From NCBI GenBank assembly GCA_945861535.1, contig CAMAUZ010000079.1, forward strand, positions 1 through 35,781: a stretch of 35,781 bases of DNA, read 5' to 3'. A program made the position numbers and the translations under genes. The notes beneath the pieces were generated by a model. That model did not search any database and was not told the origin of the DNA. It was given only the letters and a program-made list of their open reading frames with translations. This document shows, one piece after another, positions 11,824-35,781 of this stretch. Numbering within the stretch: position 1 is the first letter of the stretch; each line of letters opens with the position of its first letter. Source of the stretch: Akkermansia muciniphila (GTDB lineage Bacteria; Verrucomicrobiota; Verrucomicrobiia; Limisphaerales; BJHT01).

Positions 11824-12254
11824 GGAGGGACGCGACTGGATTGACGCTTCGTCCGCTTCGTCACCGCGGCGACCACGGTGGTCAAGGGAGGCCAGGTGGG
11901 ATGGGGTCGTGGTCGCCACTGCCCCGCACCGGGGTAGTGCGGGACGGGGAAAAAGAAATGATTCCGGATGCGGGCCGCCTTCGGCTCATCCGTCTGACTC
12001 GGCGGACCATTCCTAAGTGGTCCCATCTCGGCTCCGTCCGACACCGTCTTCATACGTCCCCTGACGATTCACCTGCGCGTCACCCTGGACCCAAGCCCAA
12101 GCGGTGCCGACCGGACACCGTTGCGCAGGTGTTGGCGCCAACAACCCGTGCTCGGAAGCGCAGGAATTTTTGGATGGCGATGGAAGCGCCATAAAACCGG
12201 GCGGCACAGCAAGCACATTGGTAAAATATCTTTCAGCCCGAAAACCGCAGAGGA

Positions 12255-12402
12255 GATGAACCACGAAACACGCGAAACACGCGAAAACAAAGGCTGCGAT
12301 TTAGCTTTCTCTGTGCCGAGAATCCTCACTTGCTGGATGAATCGGCAACTCGCTGGAACACCTTCCCCTTTCGTGTCTTTCGTGTGTTTCGTGGTTTCAA
12401 CT
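12255..12402. repeat. inverted repeat with CACGAAA-type arms
   Basis: The left arm (about 12255-12290) reads GAACCACGAAACACGCGAAA. The right arm (about 12372-12402) is its near-complement, TTTCGTGTGTTTCGTGGTTTC. About 80 bp separate them. The arms consist internally of a 9-10 bp ACACGAAA period. The unit could fold into a long imperfect hairpin. No coding content. Confidence 0.75.
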
Positions 12403-12535
12403 GCGGGATTTCGGATAATCCGTCCCGAGCGGCGGGGTGAGGACACCCGCGCCCTACCGTGGTAGGGACGCGTTGCGCGCGGGCGTAACCTCCCCACCAC
12501 CGCGCCCGATCTCCACGGGCGCGTCCGCCCCCCTT

Positions 12536-12722
12536 TGGAGTGCGGTGACTCGTCACCGCTTTCCCAAGGCGACTCGTCGCCGTCGAGTTGCCGAGATCGT
12601 GCCCAAGCAACGGGGCGTTCACGGCTCGCGCCAGCGGTGGCATGCCCGCGCGTCCGCGCCTGCCCGGTCATTCGACGGCGACCAGTCGCCTCGCCAAAGC
12701 GGTGACGAGTCACCGCACTCCA
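12536..12722. repeat. 187-bp palindromic element, copy 1
   Basis: Terminal arms of about 51 bp are inverted copies of each other. The left arm starts TGGAGTGCGGTGACTCGTCA and the right arm ends GTGACGAGTCACCGCACTCCA in mirrored order. Each arm contains two inner palindromes: GCGGTGAC-TC-GTCACCGC and a GGCGAC/GTCGCC pair. The roughly 85-bp centre (GTTGCCGAGATCGTGCCCAA and onwards) is unique within the element. It contains no open gene, so it would be non-autonomous if mobile. Confidence 0.85.
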
Positions 12723-12914
12723 CACCGGACTCCGCACGGCGGACGGGACGAGTCGGCAGGCCGCGTCTGTCCCCAACGCGTCGGGAGCGTGGCAATGATC
12801 CGGCCCGAGCGGCGGGGTGAGGACACCCGCGTCCTACCGTGGTAGGGACGCGCTGCGCGCGTCCGTAACCTCCCCACCGCCGCGCCCGATCCTACCGGGC
12901 GCATTCGCCCCCTT

Positions 12915-13101
12915 TGGAGTACGGTGACTCGTCACCGCTTTCCCAAGGCGACTCGTCGCCGTCGAGTTGCCGAGATCGTGCCCAAGCAACGGGGCGTTCA
13001 CGGCTCGCGCCAGCGGTGGCGTGCCCGCGCGTTCGCGGCCGTCGAGTCATCCGACGGCGACCAGTCGCCTCGCCAAAGCGGTGACGAGTCACCGCACTCC
13101 A
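12915..13101. repeat. 187-bp palindromic element, copy 2
   Basis: Same length, same arms and nearly the same centre as the element at 12536-12722, with one changed base in the first arm (TGGAGTACGG instead of TGGAGTGCGG) and several in the right half of the centre. It arose at least in part by the 380-bp tandem duplication. Confidence 0.85.
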
Positions 13102-13618
13102 CAGTGGATGCCCCCCCGGTTAGGGCCTTGCCCCGGCGAAACCGGATGACCGCCGCTGGTAGGGCGCGTCTGTCCCCAGCGCGCCGCGGGAGTGGTGGGG
13201 GTGGGCATCCCGATGATCCGCGTGGATCCCTGGGGCGGGGATGGTCCGTCCCCGCAAGCTTGGTGGGGACAAGCTGTCCCCACCCCGTGGTCCAGCGCGG
13301 GGCGCGCCCGGCGGGTGCGCACGCGCTGCGACGTCCGCACACTGAAGCGGCGTGAACGCCGCGCTCCCGCCGCCCGCCCCGCGTGCGTGCCATTCGCACC
13401 GGGACCTCCGGCTCCCTCTCCTCCGTTCGGAACGGAGGAGAGCCTCGCACCCGCTGCGGAAGCGTCCTGATACAGGAAGAAACTTCCGGGCGGACCCCGG
13501 ATTTCCGTAAAATTGATGGGCTTTGGAAGCGCTCCATATCAACTGCTTATGAATGTGTTTCTTAGAAGGGTTGGGGAGAGGAGGCGCTACGCCACGGCGG
13601 GATCGTCGGCAAGAGTGG

Positions 13619-15288: not shown

Positions 15289-16443
15289 CTATCCCATCAC
15301 CTCCGCCAGTTTCACCAGTCGGCTCTTCTCCGTCAGTGACTTCGCCGCCGCGTGGACGATGGCGGTGACTTCCAAGATCTCCTGGTGCGGCACCGGTTCC
15401 TTCCGGGTCAGCACCATCTCCCGGAACGTCGCGATCAGCCGGAACATTTGATAGTGATAGCCATAGTCAAAGCTGCCCTCGATCGACGGCGTGAAGCTGT
15501 GCAGCTTCTTTTTGAAATAGAGGTCGGTGCGGTCGTACTCGAACTTCTCATACGGTTGCCCAAACCACACATGACACGGATAGCGGTCGGGATAAGTGAT
15601 CAGTCCGTGGATCGTGTCCTTGTACTCATACAGACTCACTGCCTCGACACCCGCGCCCATGAGTGTGACCACCGCCCACACCGGATGCTGTCCGTAGATC
15701 ATCCACGCCGGCAGTGACGACCGGCTGAACAATCGCGCGGAGACATGCTCGAGCGCACCGAACTCCCCCGAGTCGCGCATCCGCAGCGCCGCCTCCATGC
15801 CGAACTCGTACCGCCAGCAACTGGTGGACATCAACGGCGTCCCGTGTTTCCGGGCAAATTCGAGAATCTTCCGCGTCCCCGCCACATCGCCGCCGATCGG
15901 CTTGTCACAAAATGTGGGCAGCCCTTTCGCCAGCCCCGGCGCGACCAGATCGAAATGATCCTCGCCCAACCCCGACGCGTCGCCCATCCACACGGCGTCC
16001 ACTTCCTCGAGCATCTGCGCGAGATTCGTCGCGACCTTCACGCCGGGAAACACCTCGGTGAACGGCACCGCCACGGTCGGATCGGCATCGTAGTAGTGCG
16101 TGATGCGCGTGTCGGAAAACGGCAACTGACCGAAGTTGAACTTCGGATTGCGCAGGTAACTGCTGAACAGCCGGTGCCCATACGGATAATGCTTCTTGAG
16201 CGCGTCGAGATCGCACACCGGATGCAGCCCCTGTGCGAAATGCCAGATGTGTCCGTTGCGCGGCTGCGGCTTCCCCTTGATCGCCGCCGACACCACGCCG
16301 ATGCGAATCGGCTTCTTCGCCGCCTCCGCCGCGCCCAGCGCGCCGGGCGTCCCGAACGTGCCCGCGCCAGCCAGGGCCAGCGCGCCAAGAGCGCCGGCAG
16401 ATTTCAACGTGTCACGCCGGGTGAGTGGGGAGGAGTGGTTCAT
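15289..16443 (-). CDS. Tat-exported Gfo/Idh/MocA family oxidoreductase-like protein
   Basis: The protein has 384 residues from the ATG at 16443; a TTG six bases upstream is also possible. It opens with a twin-arginine signal (SPLTRRDTLKSAG and a hydrophobic Ala/Leu core ending GALGAAEAA), so it should be exported folded. The mature N-terminus IRIGVVSAA is the first Rossmann strand, although the usual GxGxxG is degenerate here. The family's EKP motif appears as CDKPIGGDVAGTRKILEFA, followed by MSTSCWRYE. The C-terminal domain ends in a stretch with VPHQEILEVTAIVHAAAKSL. Members use NAD(P) with sugar-like substrates. Exported relatives are abundant in Verrucomicrobia and Planctomycetes, and the substrate cannot be predicted. 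No partner genes on the same strand. Confidence 0.88.
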   Translation of the reverse strand: MNHSSPLTRRDTLKSAGALGALALAGAGTFGTPGALGAAEAAKKPIRIGVVSAAIKGKPQPRNGHIWHFAQGLHPVCDLDALKKHYPYGHRLFSSYLRNPKFNFGQLPFSDTRITHYYDADPTVAVPFTEVFPGVKVATNLAQMLEEVDAVWMGDASGLGEDHFDLVAPGLAKGLPTFCDKPIGGDVAGTRKILEFARKHGTPLMSTSCWRYEFGMEAALRMRDSGEFGALEHVSARLFSRSSLPAWMIYGQHPVWAVVTLMGAGVEAVSLYEYKDTIHGLITYPDRYPCHVWFGQPYEKFEYDRTDLYFKKKLHSFTPSIEGSFDYGYHYQMFRLIATFREMVLTRKEPVPHQEILEVTAIVHAAAKSLTEKSRLVKLAEVMG

Positions 16444-16560
16444 GTTCAAGTGAGTTCAAGGGTGCCGCGGCATTCAATCGACATTCCGACGGAGAGCGAG
16501 GGCATTCCGGCAGTTCCGGTTTTCTCGGGTGGGAATGACAGTGAGTGAGGCAAGCAAAGT

Positions 16561-16641
16561 GGTAGGGCGCGTCTGCCCTCTGCGCGCCGCTGGCACCTAC
16601 GCACGGGGACCGCGGCGCGCTGAGGACAGACGCGCCCTACC
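16561..16641. repeat. hairpin element of the TAGGGCGCG family
   Basis: Arms of about 28 bp: the left arm starts GGTAGGGCGCGTCTGCCCTC and the right arm ends GGACAGACGCGCCCTACCC. They are separated by about 24 bp. It is a relative of the elements at 10968-11054 and 11223-11308 and of the solo arm near 13159. It sits in the divergent gap between the oxidoreductase and the ABC operon. Confidence 0.85.
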
Positions 16642-16691
16642 CGCCGACGGGCCGCCCGCGCTCCGGGGTGGCGACATTTTCGGCGGGTTGC

Positions 16692-16719
16692 TTGCATTGG
16701 CGCGGGTGCTCTCTATAAA
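16692..16719 (+). promoter_or_regulatory. candidate sigma70-type promoter of the ABC/HEAT operon
   Basis: TTGCAT (16692-16697), a 16-bp spacer, then TATAAA (16714-16719). The expected transcription start is about 16726, exactly where the best signal-peptide-giving GTG start lies, so the message may be leaderless. If translation instead starts at the ATG at 16747 the leader would be about 20 nt. Confidence 0.45.
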
Positions 16720-16725
16720 CGCCGC

Positions 16726-19158
16726 GTGCTCCGGGTTCCCATTGTGATGATTGCCTGCCTTTGTTGGGCGGTGCTGGCGGGCGCGGCGGAAACCGCGCCG
16801 CGCGTGCGCAATGCGGCGCTGGGGTTCAGCGGGCAGTTTCGCAACCGGCATTGGGTGCCGTTGGTGGTGGATGTTGAGAATCCCGGGCCGGCGCGGACGG
16901 GGTTGCTGGTGGTGGAATCACAGGGGCATGTCTCGCAGCAGACGGTGGTTTTTTCGCGGCCGGTTTTTCTGCCGGCCAATGCGTATCGGCGGTTTGAATT
17001 TCCCATCCGGCCGGATGCCAGGCCGCGGCTCAATCCGGGCAAGGTGCAGTTTGAAAAGGTTGCGCAGGTGCGGCTGACGGACGGCGCGTTTCAGGAATGG
17101 TCGAAGACGGATGTGGTGGGGTCGGTGGTGGCGGAGGATACGTTTTTCACGCTGGTGATTGATACGCGTTTCATTGGTTATCACCCGTTGCGCGAGGGAG
17201 TGGTCGGGCCGGAGAAGCGGCCGTTGGCGCGGGCGACGCTGCCGGTGCGGAATTTTCCGCGGCGGCCGATTGATCTCTCGGGCTTCGACGCGGTGGTGAT
17301 CGGGGACATGGGGGAGACGGATTTTACGCCGCTGCAGGTGCGCGCGTTGCGTGAATGGGTGCGGCTGGGCGGGCAGTTGTTCGTGTTGCCGTCGATCCTG
17401 CCGGCGCTCAGTCCGGCGCTGGCGGAGCTGCTGCCGGCGGGCTTTTTCTCGACGAACGCGGTGGAGACATTGCCGGCGATTGCGCCGGGGTTTGTGTTCA
17501 CCAATGGCGTCACGTTTGCCCGGATGGTCGTGCGCGAGGGGACGGGCGCGGTGGTCGAGGCGGGCGCGCGGGAGCGGCCGCTGATCGTGTCGCGGAGCGA
17601 GGGGACGGGACGGGTGACGGCGCTGGCGTTTGATGCGGGGCAGGAATCGTTTGCGATGTGGCCGGGGGCGGGGCGGTTCTGGTGCGAGCGGTTCGCGGCG
17701 GTGCCGCAGTTTTTTCATCATGCGGACCGGCTGCTGGCGCGCGCGCCGGCGGTCGAGCGGATTTTGTCGAGCCTGGCGGGGATGAAGGTGCTGGGGCGCG
17801 GCGCGCTGGTGGTTTATCTCGGCGCGGTGCTGGTGGTGTTGCTGGGGACGATTGCGGCATTTCGGTTCACGCGCGTGCCGGAGTGGGGCTGGCCGGTGGC
17901 GGTGGTGCTGGCGCTGGCGGGCGGCGGCGGCGCCGTGGTGGCCGCGGCGGCGTGGAAATCGCAGCCGCAGCCTTTTTTGAACGAGGTGTTCGTGGCGACG
18001 GCGGAGAGCGGCGGGGAGAGTGGGCGGGTGCAGGCGGCGCTCGGATTGTTCGCACCGAAGGAGACGAAATTCTCCGTGCGGCTGCCGGCGGACACGGGGT
18101 CGCTCGCGCCGTCGAAGAGCTTGTTGTCGCCGCCGGAGCAACTGCGGTTTTCGTTCGAGGAAACACTGGCGGTGACGAATCTCGCGGTGCGCGCGGATGA
18201 TCTGCGGCTGGTGTTCGGGCGCGCGCCGGTGGTCGAGACGCCGATGCCAACGGTCGCGGTGCGGATCGGCGCGGAGGGGTTGGCGGTGGTGGTGACGAAT
18301 CGCGCGGCGACGCGGCTGACGGGGGCGTTTCTGAAATTCAACCGACTGCTGGTGCCGCTGGGGGACATTGCGAAAGGGGCGCGCAGCGAGCGTTCGGGCG
18401 TTCAGAAAAACGCGGGCGAGACGGCGACAGATCTGGTGCGTAGCGCGCAGCAGGTGCAGCGGGATCAACTGCGCGAGGTGTTTTTTCCCGAGCCGGTGTA
18501 TGTCGGCGACCGGACGTGGGCGGCGGAGGAGCGGCGGTTTCAAAAAATGATGCGGGGCCGGGAGCCGTTGCCGGTGCTGTTCAGTTGGAGCGATCAGCCG
18601 ACGTTCCCGATTGCGCAGATCGAGCCGGCGGTCGCGCGGCGGGCGCTGGGGCTGTGGGCGGTGGCGGCGACGGTGGAGTATGCGGGCGGCAGGGTTTTCT
18701 TTCCGGCGGGTTCGCTGCCGTTGCAGGTGCGGAATCAGGGCGCGCTGCCGTTCGAGCGGGGCGAGGGGTGTTTCGCCAGCGCGCGGCCGGGATTGATCGT
18801 GGTGGAGTTTTCGCTGCCGCCGGGTTGCCCGCCGGTGCAGGCGGACGAGGTGACGGTGACGATGGGTTTTCGCGGCACGGCATTTTTCCCCGAGGTCTTC
18901 GTGGGCGATGGGGAGCTGGAGGTCGGGGAGGAGACGGAGCGCGCGCTGACGCGCTGGACGAAGGTCGCGGGGACCGGTGGCGTGTGGCGGATGACGGATC
19001 TGGCGCGGGTTTGGGGAGCGTCGTCGCGGAAGCTGTTGGTCGCGGTGCGGATTGCGCACACGGAGGAAGGGCGGAGACTGACGGCCAATTCGACAGCCAA
19101 TTTTCATCTGTGGCAGGTGCGCGAGCTGGATTTGGAACTCAAAGGAACTGTTCGATGA
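16726..19158 (+). CDS. exported membrane protein with GATase-like segment, first gene of an ABC-2 transporter operon
   Basis: The 810-residue protein is not assigned to a named family. From the GTG at 16726, residues 1-21 make a good signal peptide (VPIVMIACLCWAVLAGAAE); the ATG at 16747 would shorten it. A beta-rich extracytoplasmic segment follows (RNRHWVPLVVDVENPG). Residues about 185-225 (FDAVVIGDMGE, then ALREWVRLGGQLFVLPS) resemble the class I glutamine-amidotransferase-like fold of GldG/DUF4350-type proteins. No catalytic Cys is apparent there. Two membrane helices lie at about 358-383 and 388-412, and a large second extracytoplasmic half runs to the C-terminus. Its stop overlaps the ATPase start (ATGA), implying coupled translation. 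By analogy with gliding or auxiliary ABC systems it may be the extracytoplasmic partner of the transporter. Codons are strikingly G-ending. Confidence 0.8.
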   Translation: MLRVPIVMIACLCWAVLAGAAETAPRVRNAALGFSGQFRNRHWVPLVVDVENPGPARTGLLVVESQGHVSQQTVVFSRPVFLPANAYRRFEFPIRPDARPRLNPGKVQFEKVAQVRLTDGAFQEWSKTDVVGSVVAEDTFFTLVIDTRFIGYHPLREGVVGPEKRPLARATLPVRNFPRRPIDLSGFDAVVIGDMGETDFTPLQVRALREWVRLGGQLFVLPSILPALSPALAELLPAGFFSTNAVETLPAIAPGFVFTNGVTFARMVVREGTGAVVEAGARERPLIVSRSEGTGRVTALAFDAGQESFAMWPGAGRFWCERFAAVPQFFHHADRLLARAPAVERILSSLAGMKVLGRGALVVYLGAVLVVLLGTIAAFRFTRVPEWGWPVAVVLALAGGGGAVVAAAAWKSQPQPFLNEVFVATAESGGESGRVQAALGLFAPKETKFSVRLPADTGSLAPSKSLLSPPEQLRFSFEETLAVTNLAVRADDLRLVFGRAPVVETPMPTVAVRIGAEGLAVVVTNRAATRLTGAFLKFNRLLVPLGDIAKGARSERSGVQKNAGETATDLVRSAQQVQRDQLREVFFPEPVYVGDRTWAAEERRFQKMMRGREPLPVLFSWSDQPTFPIAQIEPAVARRALGLWAVAATVEYAGGRVFFPAGSLPLQVRNQGALPFERGEGCFASARPGLIVVEFSLPPGCPPVQADEVTVTMGFRGTAFFPEVFVGDGELEVGEETERALTRWTKVAGTGGVWRMTDLARVWGASSRKLLVAVRIAHTEEGRRLTANSTANFHLWQVRELDLELKGTVR

Positions 19159-20117
19159 TTGCGACGCAGGAACTCACCAAGAAATACCAGGACGTGCTCG
19201 CCCTGGATCATCTCAACCTCGTGGTCGAGGCGGGGGAAATCTTCGGCTACATCGGACCCAATGGCGCGGGCAAGACGACGACGATCCGCATTTTGTCGGG
19301 CTTGATGCGACCGACCAGCGGGCAGGCGACGGTGGCCGGCGTGGATGTCGTGCGGCATCCGCAGGAGGCGAAGAAGGTCGTCGGGTACATGCCGGACATC
19401 TTCGGGGTCTATCAGGGGATGCGCGTGTGGGAGTATCTGGATTTCTTTGGCGCGGCGTATCGGATGCCGCGCGTCGAGCGCAAGGCGCGGATCGAGGAAG
19501 TGCTGGCAATCACGGGCACGGATGAGATGCGGGATTATTTTGTGGATTCGCTGTCGCGCGGGATGCAGCAGCGCGTGGGTATTGCGCGCGCGATGATTCA
19601 CAATCCGCAGGTGTTGTTTCTCGATGAGCCGACGTCGGGGCTGGACCCGCGGGCGCGGATCGAGATGCGGCAGTTGCTGCGGCGGTTGAAGGAGATGGGG
19701 AAGACGATTCTCGTGTCGTCGCACATCCTGCCGGAGCTGGCGTCGATTTGTGATCGCATCGGGATTCTCGAACAGGCGCGGCTGCTGGTGTGCGACCGGA
19801 TGGAAGCGGTGGTGAAGCAGATCGAGCAGCGGCGGATGATCGACATCGAGATGTTGCACGACGCGGAGACGGCGGCGGGGTTGCTGGCGCAGCGGTTTCC
19901 CGCGCCGAAGCTCGAGATCAAGGAGACGCTGGGGAAGCTGATCCGGCTGTCGTTCGAGGGCGAGGATGCGGAGATCGCGGGGCTGCTCGGGTATCTGGTC
20001 GAGCAAGGGCAGGCGGTGCTGTGGTATCGCGAGGTGCCGCTGGATCTGGAGCATGTGTACATGAAGGTGACGACGCAGGCGAAGGCGGGGAAACGGAGGG
20101 CCAACGATGCCGAGTAA
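19155..20117 (+). CDS. ABC transporter ATP-binding protein
   Basis: The 320-residue ATPase belongs to the ABC-2 export (NatA/GldA-like) group. Walker A is GPNGAGKTT (residues 34-42), the signature is LSRGMQQR (133-140), Walker B is VLFLDEPTSGLD (153-164) and the switch His is H190 in VSSH. The Q-loop glutamine is replaced (VGYMPDIFG), as is common in this group. Residues beyond 220 form the usual regulatory C-terminal domain. The ATG overlaps the preceding stop by 4 bp and is preceded by AAAGGA at good spacing. It would energise the double permease encoded after the 147-bp palindromic element. The substrate is unknown. Confidence 0.93.
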   Translation: MIATQELTKKYQDVLALDHLNLVVEAGEIFGYIGPNGAGKTTTIRILSGLMRPTSGQATVAGVDVVRHPQEAKKVVGYMPDIFGVYQGMRVWEYLDFFGAAYRMPRVERKARIEEVLAITGTDEMRDYFVDSLSRGMQQRVGIARAMIHNPQVLFLDEPTSGLDPRARIEMRQLLRRLKEMGKTILVSSHILPELASICDRIGILEQARLLVCDRMEAVVKQIEQRRMIDIEMLHDAETAAGLLAQRFPAPKLEIKETLGKLIRLSFEGEDAEIAGLLGYLVEQGQAVLWYREVPLDLEHVYMKVTTQAKAGKRRANDAE

Positions 20118-20138
20118 ATCCGCACGCCGAAACGCAAC

Positions 20139-20285
20139 GGGGAGCGCACGCCGCTGGCGTGCCGGTTTGGGCGGCCCGCCCAAACCGTCGTTCCCCAGTC
20201 TGCCTTTTCTCCGGCGGGTGAAGGTTGGTGGAACGAGGTTTTCGGCGGGCCGCCGAAAACTGCACGCCAGCGGCGTGCGCTCCCC
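20139..20285. repeat. 147-bp palindromic element with perfect 24-bp terminal inverted repeats, inside the ABC operon
   Basis: The ends are perfect inverted copies over 24 bp: the left starts GGGGAGCGCACGCCGCTGGC at 20139 and the right ends GCCAGCGGCGTGCGCTCCCC at 20285. Directly inside each arm lies another palindrome, CGGTTTGGGCGG and its complement (20163-20187) and GTTTTCGGCGG and its complement (20238-20260). No target duplication is obvious. It fills most of the 245-bp gap between ATPase and permease and would form strong mRNA hairpins. Confidence 0.92.
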
Positions 20286-20362
20286 GGGGCGCGGCGGGTG
20301 CGCGTCCGACTCCTCACGTCAGCGGCTACGGGGGCGGGAGTTTTTTCACCAATCACAGCGCC

Positions 20363-22000
20363 ATGAGTAATCCGATTTTGCGGCGGGAGTTAAAGTTTGC
20401 GCTGCGCGCGCCGGTGACGCTGGGGCTGGCGGCGATGTATCTGGGCGTGCTGGCGCTGCTGTTGTGGTGGATGTGGCCGCAGGAGGGGATTTTCTCGATG
20501 GCGGCGCGGTCGTCGCGGTCGCTGCTGCTGGTGTTCAGCGTGGCGCAGTTGCTCCTGGCGATGCTGTATGCGCCGGCGTTTGCGGCGACGGCGATCACGT
20601 CGGAGAAGGAGCGGAACACGTACGACATGCTGTTCGCCACGTTGCTGCGACCGGGCGAGATCGCGGTGGGCAAGCTGGGGTCGTCGATTCTGGCGCTGCT
20701 GATTTTTGTGGCGCTGTCGGTGCCGTTGTTCGCGGCGTGTTTTTTTCTCGGGGCGGTTTCGGTACGCGAGGCGGCGGTGATTTATCTGATCACGGCGGCG
20801 AGCAGCGTGCTGTTCGGGCTGCTGGGGCTGGCGGTGAGTTCGGTGGCGCGGAGTTCGCACACGGCGCTGGTGAGCACGTATCTGCTGCTGCTGCTGGTGA
20901 ACGCGGGGCCGTGGGTGCCGTATCTGCTGCTCCAGCAGAAACCGTGGGCGGCGGAGTTTATTTACCAGGTGCGGGCGGTCAGTCCGCTGGCGGCGATGGC
21001 GTCGGTGGTGATCCCGGCGTTTCAACCGGTAGGCGCGTGGCAGGGGTATCTCGGGTTTTGCGCGGTGGGTTCGGCGGTGCTGCTGAGTTTCGTGGTGGGC
21101 CGTGTTTACTGGGCGGGGCAGCGGAACACGCGGCGGCACGGGCGCGCGATTGACGACGCCGGTGAGTTGATGAAGCGCAAGCTGCAGTTCCCGTTTTACC
21201 TGATCGATCCGATGCGCCGGAAAGGGAACATCCCGGACTGGCTGAATCCGATGTTCGCCAAGGAACTGCGCAGCCAGGCTTTCGGGGGCGGGGTGTGGAT
21301 TTTCCGCAGCGCCTACGCGTGCTTCGGCCTGTCGATGTTGCTGATGGTCGGGGCGGTGGGGAATCTCGTGGGACCGACGCCGAATCTGATTCGCTCGGTG
21401 GCGCTGGTGTTTCAGCTTGGTCTGATCGTGCTGATCGTGCCGTCGCTGACGGCGGGCGCGATCACGCAGGAACGCGAGCGCGGGAGCATGGAGCTGCTGC
21501 GGTTGTCGCGGCTCGGGGCGTTTTCGTTTCTCGTGGGGAAGGTGGCGGTGGCGATGTTGTTCGTGGCGTTCCTGATCCTAGGCGCGCTGCCGGGATGGTT
21601 CGCGCTGCATTATCTCGAAATCAACACGCTGAAGGAAATTTTGATCGCGTGGGCGGTGATCGGGACGGCGATTGCGCTGTCGCTGACGACGGGGTTGTTC
21701 AGTTCGGCGGTTGCGCCGCGCACGCCGGTGGCGACGGCGCTGGCCTACGGGCTGATGTTCGCGGTGGCGGTGGTGACGCTGCTGCCGCTGCTGGCGGCGG
21801 ATCAGATGTCGGTCCGGTTGCGCGAACTGGTGTTCACGGTGAACCCGTTTGTCGCGGCCTTGCAGGTGCTGACGCGCGGGGTGTTCGAGGACATTGGCGA
21901 GTTGTGGCGGCCGCATTTGAAGTTCGCCGGAGCCACGGCCGGGGTGTTTTTGCTCGTCGCGTATCTGCGACTGCGCCGGATGTTGTTGCCGCAAAAATGA
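20363..22000 (+). CDS. ABC-2 type permease, two fused permease halves
   Basis: The 545-residue polytopic protein has about twelve hydrophobic segments. Each half carries the ABC-2 cytoplasmic signature: AITSEKERNTYDMLFATLL near residue 76 and AITQERERGSMELLRLSRL near residue 366. A cytoplasmic linker (GQRNTRRHGR, then PMRRKGNIPDWLNPMFAKEL) joins the halves, and the second half restarts with the same MFAKELR-type opening as the N-terminal NPILRRELKFALR. This indicates an internal duplication giving a single-chain transmembrane unit for the preceding ATPase. The ATG at 20363 follows the palindromic element; the ribosome site is weak. Its stop overlaps the next small frame (ATGA at 21997). Confidence 0.9.
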   Translation: MSNPILRRELKFALRAPVTLGLAAMYLGVLALLLWWMWPQEGIFSMAARSSRSLLLVFSVAQLLLAMLYAPAFAATAITSEKERNTYDMLFATLLRPGEIAVGKLGSSILALLIFVALSVPLFAACFFLGAVSVREAAVIYLITAASSVLFGLLGLAVSSVARSSHTALVSTYLLLLLVNAGPWVPYLLLQQKPWAAEFIYQVRAVSPLAAMASVVIPAFQPVGAWQGYLGFCAVGSAVLLSFVVGRVYWAGQRNTRRHGRAIDDAGELMKRKLQFPFYLIDPMRRKGNIPDWLNPMFAKELRSQAFGGGVWIFRSAYACFGLSMLLMVGAVGNLVGPTPNLIRSVALVFQLGLIVLIVPSLTAGAITQERERGSMELLRLSRLGAFSFLVGKVAVAMLFVAFLILGALPGWFALHYLEINTLKEILIAWAVIGTAIALSLTTGLFSSAVAPRTPVATALAYGLMFAVAVVTLLPLLAADQMSVRLRELVFTVNPFVAALQVLTRGVFEDIGELWRPHLKFAGATAGVFLLVAYLRLRRMLLPQK

Positions 22001-31837: not shown

Positions 31838-32407
31838 TCAGGTGCTTGCATGACTGCGGCGGGCAAGGAGGGCCTGCCATTTGGCAATAAGGCGGCGAAG
31901 GCTCTCATCAAGCGGCTGGGCGAGGAGTTCGGCGGGCGTGAACCAGCGGAGAGCGTGGCTCTCGGCGCTCACGGTGGCAGTGGCGTTTTCAGGCGCGATG
32001 AGGACGAAGCGCACGTCATAGTGAAGGTGCGCAGGTTCGCCGCCTTTCGCGGGGATTTCGTGAATGTCGAGATCGAAGGGGCGCGCGGAGGTGACGGTGA
32101 GCCCGTCGATGCCCGACTCTTCGCGCGCCTCGCGCTGGGCGACGCGGAGGATGTTTTCGTCGCCGTCGCAGTGGCCGCCGAACTGGAGCCACTTGTCGAG
32201 TTTGCGGTGGTGATGCAGCAGGGCGCGCGCCCCATCGGCGCTGACGACCAGAGCGCTGCCGGTGAAATGGCCGGGAAACGAAGTGCGGTGAAAGCAGTCG
32301 GGCGTGGTGTCGAGCAGCGCGATCATGCGCTGGCGGAAGGGCTCCTCGACGGCGCGGGCCGAGAGATCAAGCGTGGCGAGCTGGCTGCGGAAATCAGTGC
32401 GGTTCAT
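31838..32407 (-). CDS. Nudix hydrolase
   Basis: The 189-residue protein has a full Nudix box at residues 78-100: GHCDGDE, seven residues, then REAREESGI, matching Gx5Ex7REUxEExGU. Nudix enzymes cleave nucleoside diphosphate-linked compounds with Mg. The segments before the box ([20 protein letters not shown], then KWLQFGG) and after it ([13 protein letters not shown], then LRWFTPAEL) fit small Nudix hydrolases of the family often annotated NUDIX or MutT-like. The substrate cannot be assigned. The ATG at 32407 starts the homologous region; the frame upstream to 33628 is coded by repeats and by the antisense of the ATPase gene. The neighbours are not functionally linked. Confidence 0.9.
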
Positions 32408-32552
32408 CGCGGCGAAGGTTGGGGGAAAGAGGGGATCGAGGCCAGTCTCGGATGGGACGAATGCGCGCACAGGGCGCGTCTCAGTTTCCTGCAACCTTCG
32501 GCGGGCACGGGTGCCGTGCTCGAAGAAACCTGCGGCGGCACGCGCGCGGGCG

Positions 32553-32690
32553 GGGTGGGGCAGGCATCCGTGCCTGCCAGTTCGGGCGGCATCCCTGCCG
32601 CCCGTTTCCACAGCCGAGCACTCCCGCGGAAACGGGAACACGGGGCAGGGATGCCCCGCCAACTGGCAGACAAGGATGCCTGCCCTACCC
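32553..32690. repeat. 138-bp palindromic element with ~60-bp imperfect arms
   Basis: The left arm reads GGGTGGGGCAGGCATCCGTG, continuing into a GGCATCCCTGCC palindrome and CCCGTTTCC. The right arm repeats these in inverted order and ends GGATGCCTGCCCTACCC. Arm identity is high with a few substitutions. No coding capacity. Confidence 0.87.
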
Positions 32691-32750
32691 GGCTGGCGCG
32701 GACGCCAAGCCGCGTGCCAGAAACTAAGATGCGCCCCGCGCACAGCGGCC

Positions 32751-32906
32751 GTAGCGCAGGTTTCCAAACCTGCTGTATCGCCGATTTCCAAATCGGCAGG
32801 GGCCGCTGCATTCCGAGCGCGTGCGACGAGCCGGGGCGTTGCGCGTGGCAGGACGGTCCGCGGGTTGGGAAACCCGCGAGACAGCAGACTTGGAAGCCTG
32901 CGCCAC
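32751..32906. repeat. 156-bp palindromic element of the GCAGGTTTCC family
   Basis: Two inverted arms of about 50 bp, each with two palindromes. The left arm has GCAGGTTTCCAAACCTGC and GCCGATTTCCAAATCGGC; the right arm has GCGGGTTGGGAAACCCGC and CAGACTTGGAAGCCTG. The outer ends are GTAGCGCAGG and CCTGCGCCAC. A solo arm of the same family lies at 15194-15242. Confidence 0.9.
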
Positions 32907-33047
32907 AGGCACCGCGCGCAGCGAGACCTTCGGCGATCACACCGTCTCGTGCGTGCGGACGCCGCTGAGGTCGTGGACGGCCGCACTCCCGCAGTGCCAT
33001 CCGACAATTTACTTGAGCCACTCCCCTGCCCTCCCGACACTCCGCCC

Positions 33048-34592
33048 ATGAGCCAACACCCGGAACCCATCCTCGTCGGTCGCAGCAAAAAAGACGTCTT
33101 CCTCCTGCCACAGATGGCCAATCGCCACGGCCTCATCGCCGGCGCGACCGGCACGGGCAAGACCGTGTCGCTGCAACTCCTCGCCGAACACTTCAGCCAG
33201 ATGGGCGTGCCCGTCTTCATGGCCGACGTGAAGAGCGACCTCACCGGCCTGAGCCAGGCGGGCAAACCGACCGGCAAAGTCCAGGAGCGCGTCAACCTGC
33301 TCAAGATCACCGACCACGCCTTCTCCGGCTGCCCCGTGATGTTCTGGGATGTCTTCGGCGAACAGGGCCACCCGGTCCGCGCGACCATTTCCGAGATGGG
33401 TCCGCTCCTGCTCTCGCGCCTCCTCCAGCTCAACGACACCCAGGCCGGCGTCATCTCGCTCGTGTTCCGCGTCGCCGACGAACACGGCCTGCTCCTCCTC
33501 GATTCCAAAGACCTCCGCGCGATGCTGCAATACGTGGGCGACAACGCCGCCGCCTTCACCAGGCAATACGGCAACATCTCCACCGCCAGCATCGGCGCCA
33601 TCCAGCGCAACCTCCTCGCGCTCGACACCCAGGGCGGCGACCAGTTCTTCGGCGAACCCGCGCTGAACTTCGACGACTTCCTCCAGACCGACCCGCAGGG
33701 CCGCGGCTACATCAACATCCTCTCCGCCGACAAGCTCATGCAGGCGCCCAAGGTCTATGCCACCTTCCTGCTCTGGATGCTCTCCGAACTCTTCGAGCGC
33801 CTGCCCGAAGTCGGCGACCTGCCCAAGCCCAAGCTCGTCTTTTTCTTCGATGAAGCGCACCTCCTCTTCTCCGACATCCCCGCGCCGTTGCTCGAGAAAA
33901 TCGAGCAGGTCATCCGCCTCATCCGCTCCAAAGGCGTCGGCGTTTATTTCGTCACGCAAAACCCGCGCGACATTCCCGACAACGTCCTCGGCCAGCTCGG
34001 CAACCGCATCCAGCACGCCCTGCGCGCCTACACCCCGCGCGATCAAAAGGCCGTGCAGACCGCCGCCGACACCTTCCGCCAGAACCCCGCGTTCGACACC
34101 GGCACCGTCCTCACCGAACTCGGCGTCGGCGAGGCCCTCGTCTCGTTGCTCGATGAAAAAGGCCAGCCCACCATGGTCGAGCGCGTCTTCATCTGCCCGC
34201 CCGGCAGCCAGATCGGCCCCATCACGCCCGAGCAGCGCAAGGCCATCATCGAGCAGTCGCTCGTCTTCGGCCAATACGAGAAAACCATGGACCGCGAGTC
34301 CGCCTACGAACGCTTGAAAGGCGTGGCCGCCAGCTCCGGCGACGCCGCCGCGCAAGCCCAGGCCAGCGGCGAAAAAGGCGGCTTCTTCAGTTCCCTCGGC
34401 TCCCTCTTCGGCGGCGGCGCGAAAACCCCGAGCGCGCCGAGCCTGCCCGCGTCGGCACCGCGCGGACGGCAGCCCGAGTCGCTCATGGGCACCATGGCCA
34501 AGAGCGCCGTGCGCAGCATCGGCAGCGCCGTCGGCCGCGAGATCATCCGCGGCGTGATGGGTTCCCTCTTCGGCGGCGGCAAGCGAAGGTGA
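33048..34592 (+). CDS. HerA-like helicase/ATPase (DUF853 family, YjgR-like)
   Basis: The 514-residue P-loop ATPase has Walker A GATGTGKT (residues 32-39) and Walker [14 protein letters not shown] (near 263). [15 protein letters not shown] and [20 protein letters not shown], both typical of the DUF853/YjgR family, are present. Members resemble the HerA/FtsK translocase core, but their cellular role is poorly defined. The C-terminus is Gly/Ala/Ser-rich ([20 protein letters not shown]) and ends [12 protein letters not shown], as in relatives. The ATG at 33048 starts the homology; upstream in-frame codons to 32304 cross two palindromic repeats and are not real. No companion nuclease such as NurA is adjacent, which argues against a HerA-NurA repair pair. 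Confidence 0.93.
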
Positions 34593-35324
34593 ATGGAGGC
34601 GGCGCGGCGGCGCAATCCCGCCAGCACGACCAGCCGTGCGGACGCGCCGGTGTTGTGGGGAGGGCTTCGAGCCTTCCGCTGGAGTTTGGACATTTTCGTT
34701 CTCTCCCTACCGCACGCCCGGCTGCGGCTCCGCGTCGTGCCGGAGGCACGTAAGATATTAGCCGGTGGTGAAGCGCAGCGGAACCACCGGACCCGCCGCC
34801 CCAACCCGGCCCTGCGCCCCGGCGGGGCGCGAGAGTCGTGAAACCTCCCCGGCACCTCTCGCTGGGGAGGGACCACTGAGCCGCAACTATTCAGTGAGGG
34901 CAACAGGAGCGCGGCCTTCAGGCCGCAGAAGCGTCCGACCGCAGTGATCGCGTCACAAACTACGAACGCGTGCTCCCACTCAAACTTTTGGTGAGTTTAA
35001 TAAGACGGTTCGGATGATTCTCCCGCCCCCTACAGGACGCACGTTTCTGCGGCCTGAAGGCCGCGCTCCTGACACCCTCATTGCATGGTTACGGCTGAGT
35101 TGTGAAGGGGCCGTTATGTCGGCCCATGATGCCGCGTCGCCGTGGTGAGGGGTGTCGTCGGGGAGCGCGCCTCTCGCGCCCCGCCGGGGCGCAACCCTCT
35201 TTGGTTCGGGTTTTCCGGTGGTTCCGCTGCGCTTCACCACCGGCTAATTTCTTGCGTGCCTCCGGCACGAAGGGGGGGCGAGCAGAAGCTTGGCACCGGA
35301 GCGAGCGCGTGCCACCGTCGGTAC
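34593..35324. other. intergenic region built mainly from a mirrored repeat array
   Basis: No gene is supported in these 730 bp. From 34733 to 35275 the sequence is a large imperfect inverted repeat (described separately). The 140 bp before it and the 50 bp after it show nothing recognisable. Confidence 0.65.
34733..35275. repeat. 540-bp mirrored array of several hairpin repeats
   Basis: The left half reads, in order, GTGCCGGAGGCACG, TTAGCCGGTGGTGAAGCGCA, GCGGAACCACCGG, GCGCCCCGGCGGGGCGCGAG, CTGAGCCGCAAC, TGAGGG and GGAGCGCGGCCTTCAGGCCG. The right half (35035-35275) has the same blocks as reverse complements in mirrored order. A unique 100-bp centre remains at about 34936-35034. Several blocks are themselves palindromes, so both halves fold locally as well as with each other. 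Confidence 0.85.
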
Positions 35325-35555
35325 ATGAGCACGATCACGGTTCCGCTGCCGGATGAAGACTTTGCCTTTCTCCGCCACTTCTCCGCCGCGCAGGGGACTT
35401 CGGCGGAGGCGTTTCTGGCGCGGCAGGCGCGCAATTTGCGCGAGCAGTTGCAACGGCCGCTGCCGCCCGAGGCGCTGCGGGCCACCGGCATCATTTCGGC
35501 GGAGATCGCGGGCGAGGAAACCCACCGCGAACATCTCGCAAAGAAGCACTCGTGA
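35325..35555 (+). CDS. probable antitoxin of a PIN toxin-antitoxin pair
   Basis: The 76-residue protein starts with a short strand (MSTITVPLPDEDFAFLRHFS) and continues with helices (TSAEAFLARQARNLREQLQR). This arrangement fits ribbon-helix-helix-like antitoxins, but the family assignment is tentative. Its stop overlaps the GTG start of a PIN-domain frame by 4 bp (GTGA), the classic layout of an antitoxin-toxin operon. The ATG at 35325 was chosen; the longer frame from 35142 reads through the mirrored repeat. The toxin partner is broken, so this antitoxin may now be an orphan. Confidence 0.7.
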   Translation: MSTITVPLPDEDFAFLRHFSAAQGTSAEAFLARQARNLREQLQRPLPPEALRATGIISAEIAGEETHREHLAKKHS

Positions 35556-35637
35556 AAGTCACGCTGGACATCAACGTATTGCTGGATGTGTTCCAAAAGC
35601 GCGAGCCGCACTACGCGGCGTCCGCGCCGTGGGCCGC
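35552..35637 (+). pseudogene. PIN-domain toxin gene, disrupted after ~28 codons by an IS630-family element
   Basis: The frame from the GTG at 35552 begins VKVTLDINVLLDVFQKREPH, a clear PIN-domain first strand with its catalytic Asp and Asn. After about codon 28 the sequence passes into the terminal sequence of an insertion element (from 35638), and the remaining catalytic residues are lost. The frame stays open through the element to the window edge but encodes nonsense (SLKTILIILSARNLRR). Confidence 0.82.
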
Positions 35638-35781
35638 TAGTGTAGTGTCTCTCAAAACTATACTCATAATTCTTTCGGCGCGGAATTTGCGGCGGCCCGC
35701 GCCCGCTGAATCTTGGCCAGGATTTCCTCCCCCGCGGCTTTCCAGACGTAGCGCTTGGGGCGGAGATTGCGTTCCCGCAGG
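35638..35781 (-). mobile_element. IS630-family insertion sequence, right part outside window
   Basis: The element appears to begin right after the TA dinucleotide at 35638-35639, the target expected for IS630-type elements. Its terminal sequence starts GTGTAGTGTCTCTCAAAACT. The other end and the duplicated TA lie beyond the window. Confidence 0.75.
35664..35781 (-). CDS. IS630-family transposase, C-terminal 38 residues
   Basis: The minus-strand frame entering from the window edge reads LRERNLRPKRYVWKAAGEEI, then LAKIQRARAAANSAPKEL, and stops at 35664-35666. The RPKRYVWKAAGEEILAKI segment matches the conserved end of IS630 transposases (usually PKPFVWTKSADEIL). The catalytic DDE residues are outside the window. 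The stop lies about 25 bp from the element's terminus, a normal distance. Confidence 0.78.
   Translation of the reverse strand, partial: LRERNLRPKRYVWKAAGEEILAKIQRARAAANSAPKEL

Follow-up and report, generated by a model that had tools for sequence, protein, structure and literature searches.

The mirrored array at positions 34733-35275 of the window (the whole stretch of 35,781 nucleotides that was analysed) is composed of two different palindromic elements, one of which, here termed INNER, is nested in the other, termed OUTER. The best explanation, with a probability of roughly 0.88, is that INNER, a MITE, inserted with a 5-bp duplication of the CTNAG type near the middle of the older OUTER, a relative of IS200-like elements, and that the symmetries of the two sum to the observed array. 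Since each element is palindromic, the position of the symmetric INNER near the middle of the symmetric OUTER produces a multi-family array mirrored around its centre. The locus is a fresh instance of already known kinds of element, and a puzzling array becomes an ordered history, with OUTER first and INNER later. What looks like an inverted duplication can thus be produced by two palindromic elements, which cautions against reading such arrays as rearrangements.

The mirror symmetry described in the initial annotation is real. Three pairs of inverted arms were identified, at 34725-34804/35201-35280 (80 nt, 85% complementary), 34813-34838/35168-35193 (26 nt, 96%), and 34872-34940/35035-35103 (69 nt, 83%). 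The array folded as single-stranded DNA at -216.2 kcal/mol, compared with a mean of -115.0 kcal/mol for shuffled sequences (z, -17.9; 0 of 100 shuffles as good), and its score against its own reverse complement was 203 bits, compared with a best of 129 and a median of 22.6 among 131 window tiles. On each side, five types of block are distinguishable, namely, the hairpins H1, H2, and H3, the inner terminal inverted repeat (TIR), and the inner hairpin. Other strongly self-complementary stretches of the window (12196-13280, 16261-17074, 19784-20597, and 32250-33063; 79 to 129 bits, compared with the tile median of 22.6) are probably further palindromic elements.

A search of the same genome with the 557-bp array yielded 134 matches (40 of 358 first-look candidates were scored), which were split between query positions 1-156 plus 373-557, corresponding to OUTER, and query positions ~152-375, corresponding to INNER. 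The check for the same block order elsewhere was negative in this genome, as apart from the window itself none of these matches spanned the whole array.

OUTER lies at approximately 34679-35285 and is a palindromic, apparently noncoding element with inverted arms and a length of ~388 bp once the insert and one CTGAG are subtracted. Its limits are approximate; on the left, 16 of 69 matches in the genome start at query positions 77 to 84 (window 34676-34683), and on the right, six copies have, by eye, ~70 nt more in common than the window keeps. The left arm contains CGTC followed by H1 (CGTGCC GGA GGCACG; 34733-34750, minus strand), a TTAG tag followed by H2 (CCGGTGGT...ACCACCGG; 34758-34790, minus strand), and H3 (GCGCCCCGGCGGGGCGC; 34814-34830). 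The right arm contains H3' (35176-35192), H2' followed by CTAA, the reverse complement of TTAG (35215-35247, plus strand), and H1' (CGTGCC TCC GGCACG; 35255-35269, plus strand). The H1 form GTGCC-GGA-GGCAC was counted by eye in 34 of 40 arm cores. Copies of OUTER are present on other contigs at identities of 96% (L002), 94% (L004), 93% (L005), 82% (L012), 79% (L024), 77% (L026), and 76% (L030). A 338-bp query made by joining the two flanks, with INNER and one CTGAG removed, was matched without interruption in contigs C63 (96.4%), C22 (93.8%), and C121 (93.1%), and four further copies had identities of 76% to 82%. INNER is absent at the junction point in all seven aligned OUTER copies, three of which are 93% to 96% identical across the join, and the copy L004 on C22 reads ACCA-CTGAG-TTGTG, which is the exact empty site (ACCACTGAGTTGTG) before insertion. 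The OUTER copies without INNER and the empty site in L004 indicate that INNER inserted into an existing OUTER.

INNER (34881-35094, 214 bp) has a TIR (CCGYAACNATTCAGTGAGGGC), which is ~21 bp long and accompanied by a subterminal hairpin, GCGGCCTTCAGGCCGC on the left (34911-34926) and GCGGCCTGAAGGCCGC on the right (35049-35064). The two copies of the target site duplication CTGAG are at 34876-34880 and 35095-35099. INNER is short and noncoding, with TIRs and a target site duplication, as is characteristic of MITEs. Apart from this copy, the genome has at least 17 that match 180 or more of the 213 query positions with 76% to 93% identity; this count is a lower bound, as scoring covered 20 of the 240 first-look candidates. 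The stretch 34936-35034, first described as a unique centre, is therefore the middle of a repeated element. The congener genome G001 contains three copies over positions 1 to 213 (79% to 84% identity). Related versions of ~190 to 213 bp have the TIRs in common and differ in their middles. The TIR query CCGTAACNATTCAGTGAGGGC matched 63 sites in the genome with at most three mismatches, compared with 0 for a reversed control. The 5-mers flanking the family follow the pattern YTNAR and are duplicated; among 46 TIR pairs accepted by the script, the 5-bp flanks were identical in 19, matched at four of five positions in 10, and matched at three or fewer in 17, the 27 imperfect or absent duplications including false pairs admitted by loose TIR thresholds. 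Across 2,000 shuffles, the number of perfect flanks averaged 2.9 and never exceeded 9, compared with the 19 observed, and identity just outside the flanks was 27%.

INNER and OUTER-type elements cluster in this genome. OUTER-type arms occur beside an INNER-like element at L312:392-727 (C12), L313:343-874 (C50), and L314:302-1003 (C25), at distances of ~5, ~30, and ~210 bp, respectively. At these three places, the elements lie side by side, none is nested, and only one flank of INNER has OUTER arms. Two contig starts (C27 and C58) and two contig ends (C46 and C27) fall within INNER copies whose letters are identical, which is expected of recent copies. One INNER copy (L147:471-1366; contig C17:82270-83165 of G000) is 896 bp long instead of the usual ~211 bp and contains an insert of ~685 bp with group II intron domains (RF02001, 80.3 bits; RF01998, 38.2 bits; RF00029, 44 bits), located a few bases behind the right subterminal hairpin. 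In G003, G018, and other genomes of the order, the INNER hairpin region (about GGAGCGCGGCCTTCAGGCCGCAG) matches stand-alone palindromes of ~22 to 43 nt, in relatives having no longer INNER match among the matches listed.

An autonomous partner of INNER was not found among the inspected TIR sites, which are short elements, contig ends, or sites with no convincing second end; the search covered an assembly of 169 contigs that is broken at such repeats, and it would overlook a partner whose TIRs have diverged. IS1380, a candidate helper on account of the CC ends and 5-bp duplications, was rejected; none of the four IS1380-type loci has the INNER TIR at up to four mismatches, and at the one on C45, a search for inverted ends yielded three 14-letter candidates with two mismatches, none of them like the INNER TIR. 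A distant blastn search against phage records yielded no match at an E value of 1e-5.

The genes downstream of the array, first described as a toxin-antitoxin pair, do not support an intact pair. The 76-amino-acid ORF at 35325-35555 has no Pfam match over the cutoff (the best is DUF6290, with an E value of 0.21), the 31-amino-acid start of the following frame has no Pfam match, and the congener's version of this second frame ends after 26 codons. Together, the lack of a Pfam match over the cutoff and the short congener frame indicate no more than an antitoxin-like gene whose partner is truncated. The frame at 35552-35781 has a GTG start (VKVTLDINVLLDVF), appears PIN-like by eye, and diverges from the congener near 35630, close to the contig end; it is probably a decayed toxin gene. 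The orthologous locus of G001 (L140) has no OUTER or INNER match at an E value of ≤1e-3. The interval between its HerA-like and antitoxin-like genes holds a different palindromic element and so cannot serve as an unoccupied reference site for OUTER; such elements have entered this gap on more than one occasion. The mirrored element of G001 is at L140:3190-3520 and has the ends GCCTTTCGGTAATTCC and GGAATTACCGAAAGGC. A search for HerA neighbours returned 80 loci with 56% to 66% identity, which have diverged too far for the locus to be seen. Of 100 matches in the congener genome, most fall on residues ~130 to 215 of the HerA-like ORF at 32304-34592 (window 32304-33050), and Pfam HerA_C starts only at residue 260; the true start is thus probably downstream, and the N-terminal part is probably derived from a repeat.

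One of the nine matches to PF01797 in the genome, L034 on contig C29, is flanked on both sides by OUTER arms. In L034 coordinates, the left arm is at 1119-1221, the gene is at 1483-1929, and the right arm is at ~1923-2051; the arms share 80% to 85% identity with OUTER over ~100 to 130 nt, and the OUTER interior has nothing longer than 10 to 11 letters in common with L034. The Y1 gene is uninterrupted and encodes 148 amino acids that match Pfam Y1_Tnp (PF01797) with 77.6 bits and pass the NCBIfam IS200/IS605 model NF033573 (59.3 bits; cutoff, 55). None of seven proteins passed the model for REP-associated transposases (RAYTs), NF047646, with a best score of 24.3 bits against a cutoff of 80. A phmmer search with the L034 transposase led to PDB entry 2fyx, and its translation contains HVH and YxxxQ, which we take to be the catalytic motifs. 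The left H1 of L034 is GATCCC-GGA-GGGATC, in which both sides of the stem have changed together, and this form is also present in the congener loci L173 and L175. The H2 hairpin likewise flanks the L034 gene, and its stems covary between related elements, so that the subterminal hairpins are conserved as structures. A fragment of a similar transposase in the congener (79% identity over residues 97 to 148, with one stop) also lies beside an OUTER-type arm. OUTER itself carries no gene, and the presence of its arms around the L034 Y1 gene indicates that it is probably a nonautonomous relative of the L034-type IS200-like element.

Transposases of the IS200/IS605 type recognize hairpins in single-stranded DNA, and their elements insert beside a fixed tetranucleotide and leave the target unduplicated. 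The L034 Y1 enzyme or a close relative may accordingly be the one that recognizes the hairpins of OUTER on single-stranded DNA and moves the element, and INNER would be moved by a DDE-type transposase, none of which was found here. On the nested-insertion explanation, the entry of the 214-bp palindromic INNER near the middle of the older palindromic OUTER left the CTNAG-type duplication of 5 bp (CTGAG/CTGAG here), and the symmetry of INNER added to that of OUTER gives one long mirrored array.

The ends of OUTER match the Rfam family Acido-Lenti-1 (RF01687) at 34736-34765 on the minus strand (27.4 bits) and at 35240-35269 on the plus strand (28.6 bits), both below the gathering score of 37. In the order to which the genome belongs, RF01687 matches were found in 41 of 58 genomes at an E value of ≤0.001 and over the cutoff in 31, and at this E value none were found in 14 control genomes. 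The genome analysed here contains at least 86 (86 of 2,180 candidates were scored). Twenty of 37 listed matches were re-examined, in the order listed, leaving out matches at C40, C20, and C41 that already appeared as pairs. Seventeen had a second match in a minus/plus arrangement ~146 bp apart, with three partners below the gathering score (L279, L280, and L285); the other three places (L276, L287, and L288) were not simple pairs. The ends of OUTER show this minus/plus arrangement as well.

Thirty Y1 loci related to L034, being those fetched of more matches listed, were examined for RF01687 in their flanks at an E value of ≤0.1; 13 had a match, and 17 had none. Seven of nine nearest upstream matches lay on the minus strand and 9 of 10 nearest downstream matches on the plus strand (16 of 19; binomial P = 0.004), with the unexpected orientation in both nearest hairpins of L227 and in the only one of L254. 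In the six loci matched on both sides (for L227, the outer upstream copy was used), the H2 stems on the two sides have a mean identity of 98%, compared with 60% between different elements. Two of the eight base pairs in the H2 stem are the same in all these elements and the other six differ, and pairing is kept in all 12 stems examined. By eye, the complementary-strand tetranucleotide before the H2 stem is in many cases TTAG, ATAG, or GTAG, a REP-type tag. Across the 58 genomes, 32 have both RF01687 and an L034-like Y1 gene, 9 have RF01687 only, 3 have Y1 only, and 14 have neither (Fisher P = 5e-5; rank correlation of counts, 0.68; the counts are lower bounds, and the values are uncorrected for relatedness); larger genomes also tend to have more of both (rho, 0.36 and 0.38). 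A small tandem array of four RF01687-like hairpins on the same strand, spaced ~69 bp apart, is present at L255:2002-2252, directly downstream of a Y1 gene.

Nested insertion has to be weighed against three other origins of the array. The initial annotation considered independent insertions hard to reconcile with the array and proposed replication-template switching or an element carrying the whole array. If one half of the array were an inverted copy of the other made by template switching, the mirrored block order on both halves would follow directly. However, the longer arms are only 83% to 85% complementary, similarly imperfect left and right pairs recur in other copies, and the middle is a repeat family with target duplications in an OUTER that also occurs without it, which leaves template switching hardly any weight. 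The OUTER copies that lack INNER and the duplicated CTGAG contradict it. Nor is it needed, as these observations and the copies of INNER found alone suffice to explain the array by nested insertion. The proposal of a carrier element was right in that the array derives from mobile elements, and wrong in that there are two of them, each found without the other. A single composite moving as a unit would account for every block being a repeat found elsewhere and for the three places where INNER-like and OUTER-type sequences adjoin. It is nonetheless highly improbable, since among the matches scored the window alone spans the 557-bp query and at those places the OUTER arms flank INNER one-sidedly. 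The repeats are abundant, and the assembly does break within INNER copies, as a chimeric join of two repeats would suppose; however, both junctions bear the type of 5-bp duplication seen at other INNER copies, and the OUTER halves align with copies that are uninterrupted in three other contigs (93% to 96%). As both parts and the empty junction are found on other contigs, an assembly artefact is very unlikely.

A different question is whether OUTER and the Acido-Lenti-1-like hairpins are ends of mobile elements or transcribed functional RNAs, such as terminators, mRNA stabilizers, or small RNAs. RF01687 is classed as a small RNA gene, and the hairpins fold strongly, both of which would fit an RNA function. 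However, the copy number, the inverted dimers, the siting beside Y1 genes, and the stems matched within each element make the RNA reading, on balance, unlikely, although the hairpins may have a secondary role as RNA, and 17 of 30 related Y1 loci are without such a hairpin. Copy number, inverted pairing, orientation in Y1 flanks, matched stems, and co-occurrence across genomes suggest, from sequence comparison, that Acido-Lenti-1 often marks transposon ends in this order. It is likely that Acido-Lenti-1 is not primarily an RNA gene here but the end hairpin pair of IS200-like or REP-type elements, spread by Y1 enzymes as inverted dimers, with OUTER as a larger relative. Among 19 Y1 loci of the wider phylum, picked by Pfam score and not by likeness to L034, two weak RF01687 matches were found (E value of ≤0.05; 29 and 27.7 bits), and one Acidobacteriaceae genome (that of L083) has neither an RF01687 nor a Y1_Tnp match; the proposed reading therefore applies to this order and is not extended to the hosts originally described.

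In the main text of Weinberg et al. (2010; PMC2864571), Acido-Lenti-1 appears once, in a table, and according to a passage of a 2026 paper (PMC13298647), little is known about its function, and it may take part in the regulation of neighbouring protease genes. If the transposon-end reading is true, genes beside Acido-Lenti-1 elsewhere would be near the ends of mobile elements instead of being targets of a trans-acting RNA, and Rfam-based annotation would label transposon ends as small RNA genes. The locus thus offers a testable proposal for the origin of Acido-Lenti-1, which is a more useful outcome than the ordered history of the array.

Both elements resemble known systems. Like bacterial MITEs, INNER is ~190 to 214 bp long, lacks coding capacity, and has TIRs, a 5-bp target duplication, and many copies. 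REP sequences and REPINs were reportedly treated by Bertels and Rainey in 2011. The units here are longer and contain two or three hairpins, the tag of OUTER is TTAG, and, unlike in REP systems, the seven proteins tested scored under the cutoff for REP-associated transposases. As described by Di Nocera et al. (2013; PMC3733652), GTAG REPs and REPINs are likewise short palindromes with NTAG before the stem, which form inverted dimers and occur near Y1 genes. In the TIRYT/TIRtron elements described in the same paper, a Y1 gene likewise lies between inverted repeats, some of which are self-complementary and form moderately repeated families, often as dimers or clusters, as here. By the description given there, the present elements differ in having arms in which an NTAG-tagged H2 is accompanied by another hairpin, H1, and in OUTER also by H3, and in having transposases that score as IS200/IS605 TnpA. 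Finally, although the OUTER ends score under the 37-bit gathering threshold of RF01687 and have an H2 loop of 13 nt instead of 4, they have the layout of Acido-Lenti-1 as given by Weinberg et al. (PMC2864571) in common, with the stem H2, a CTAN link, and the stem H1.
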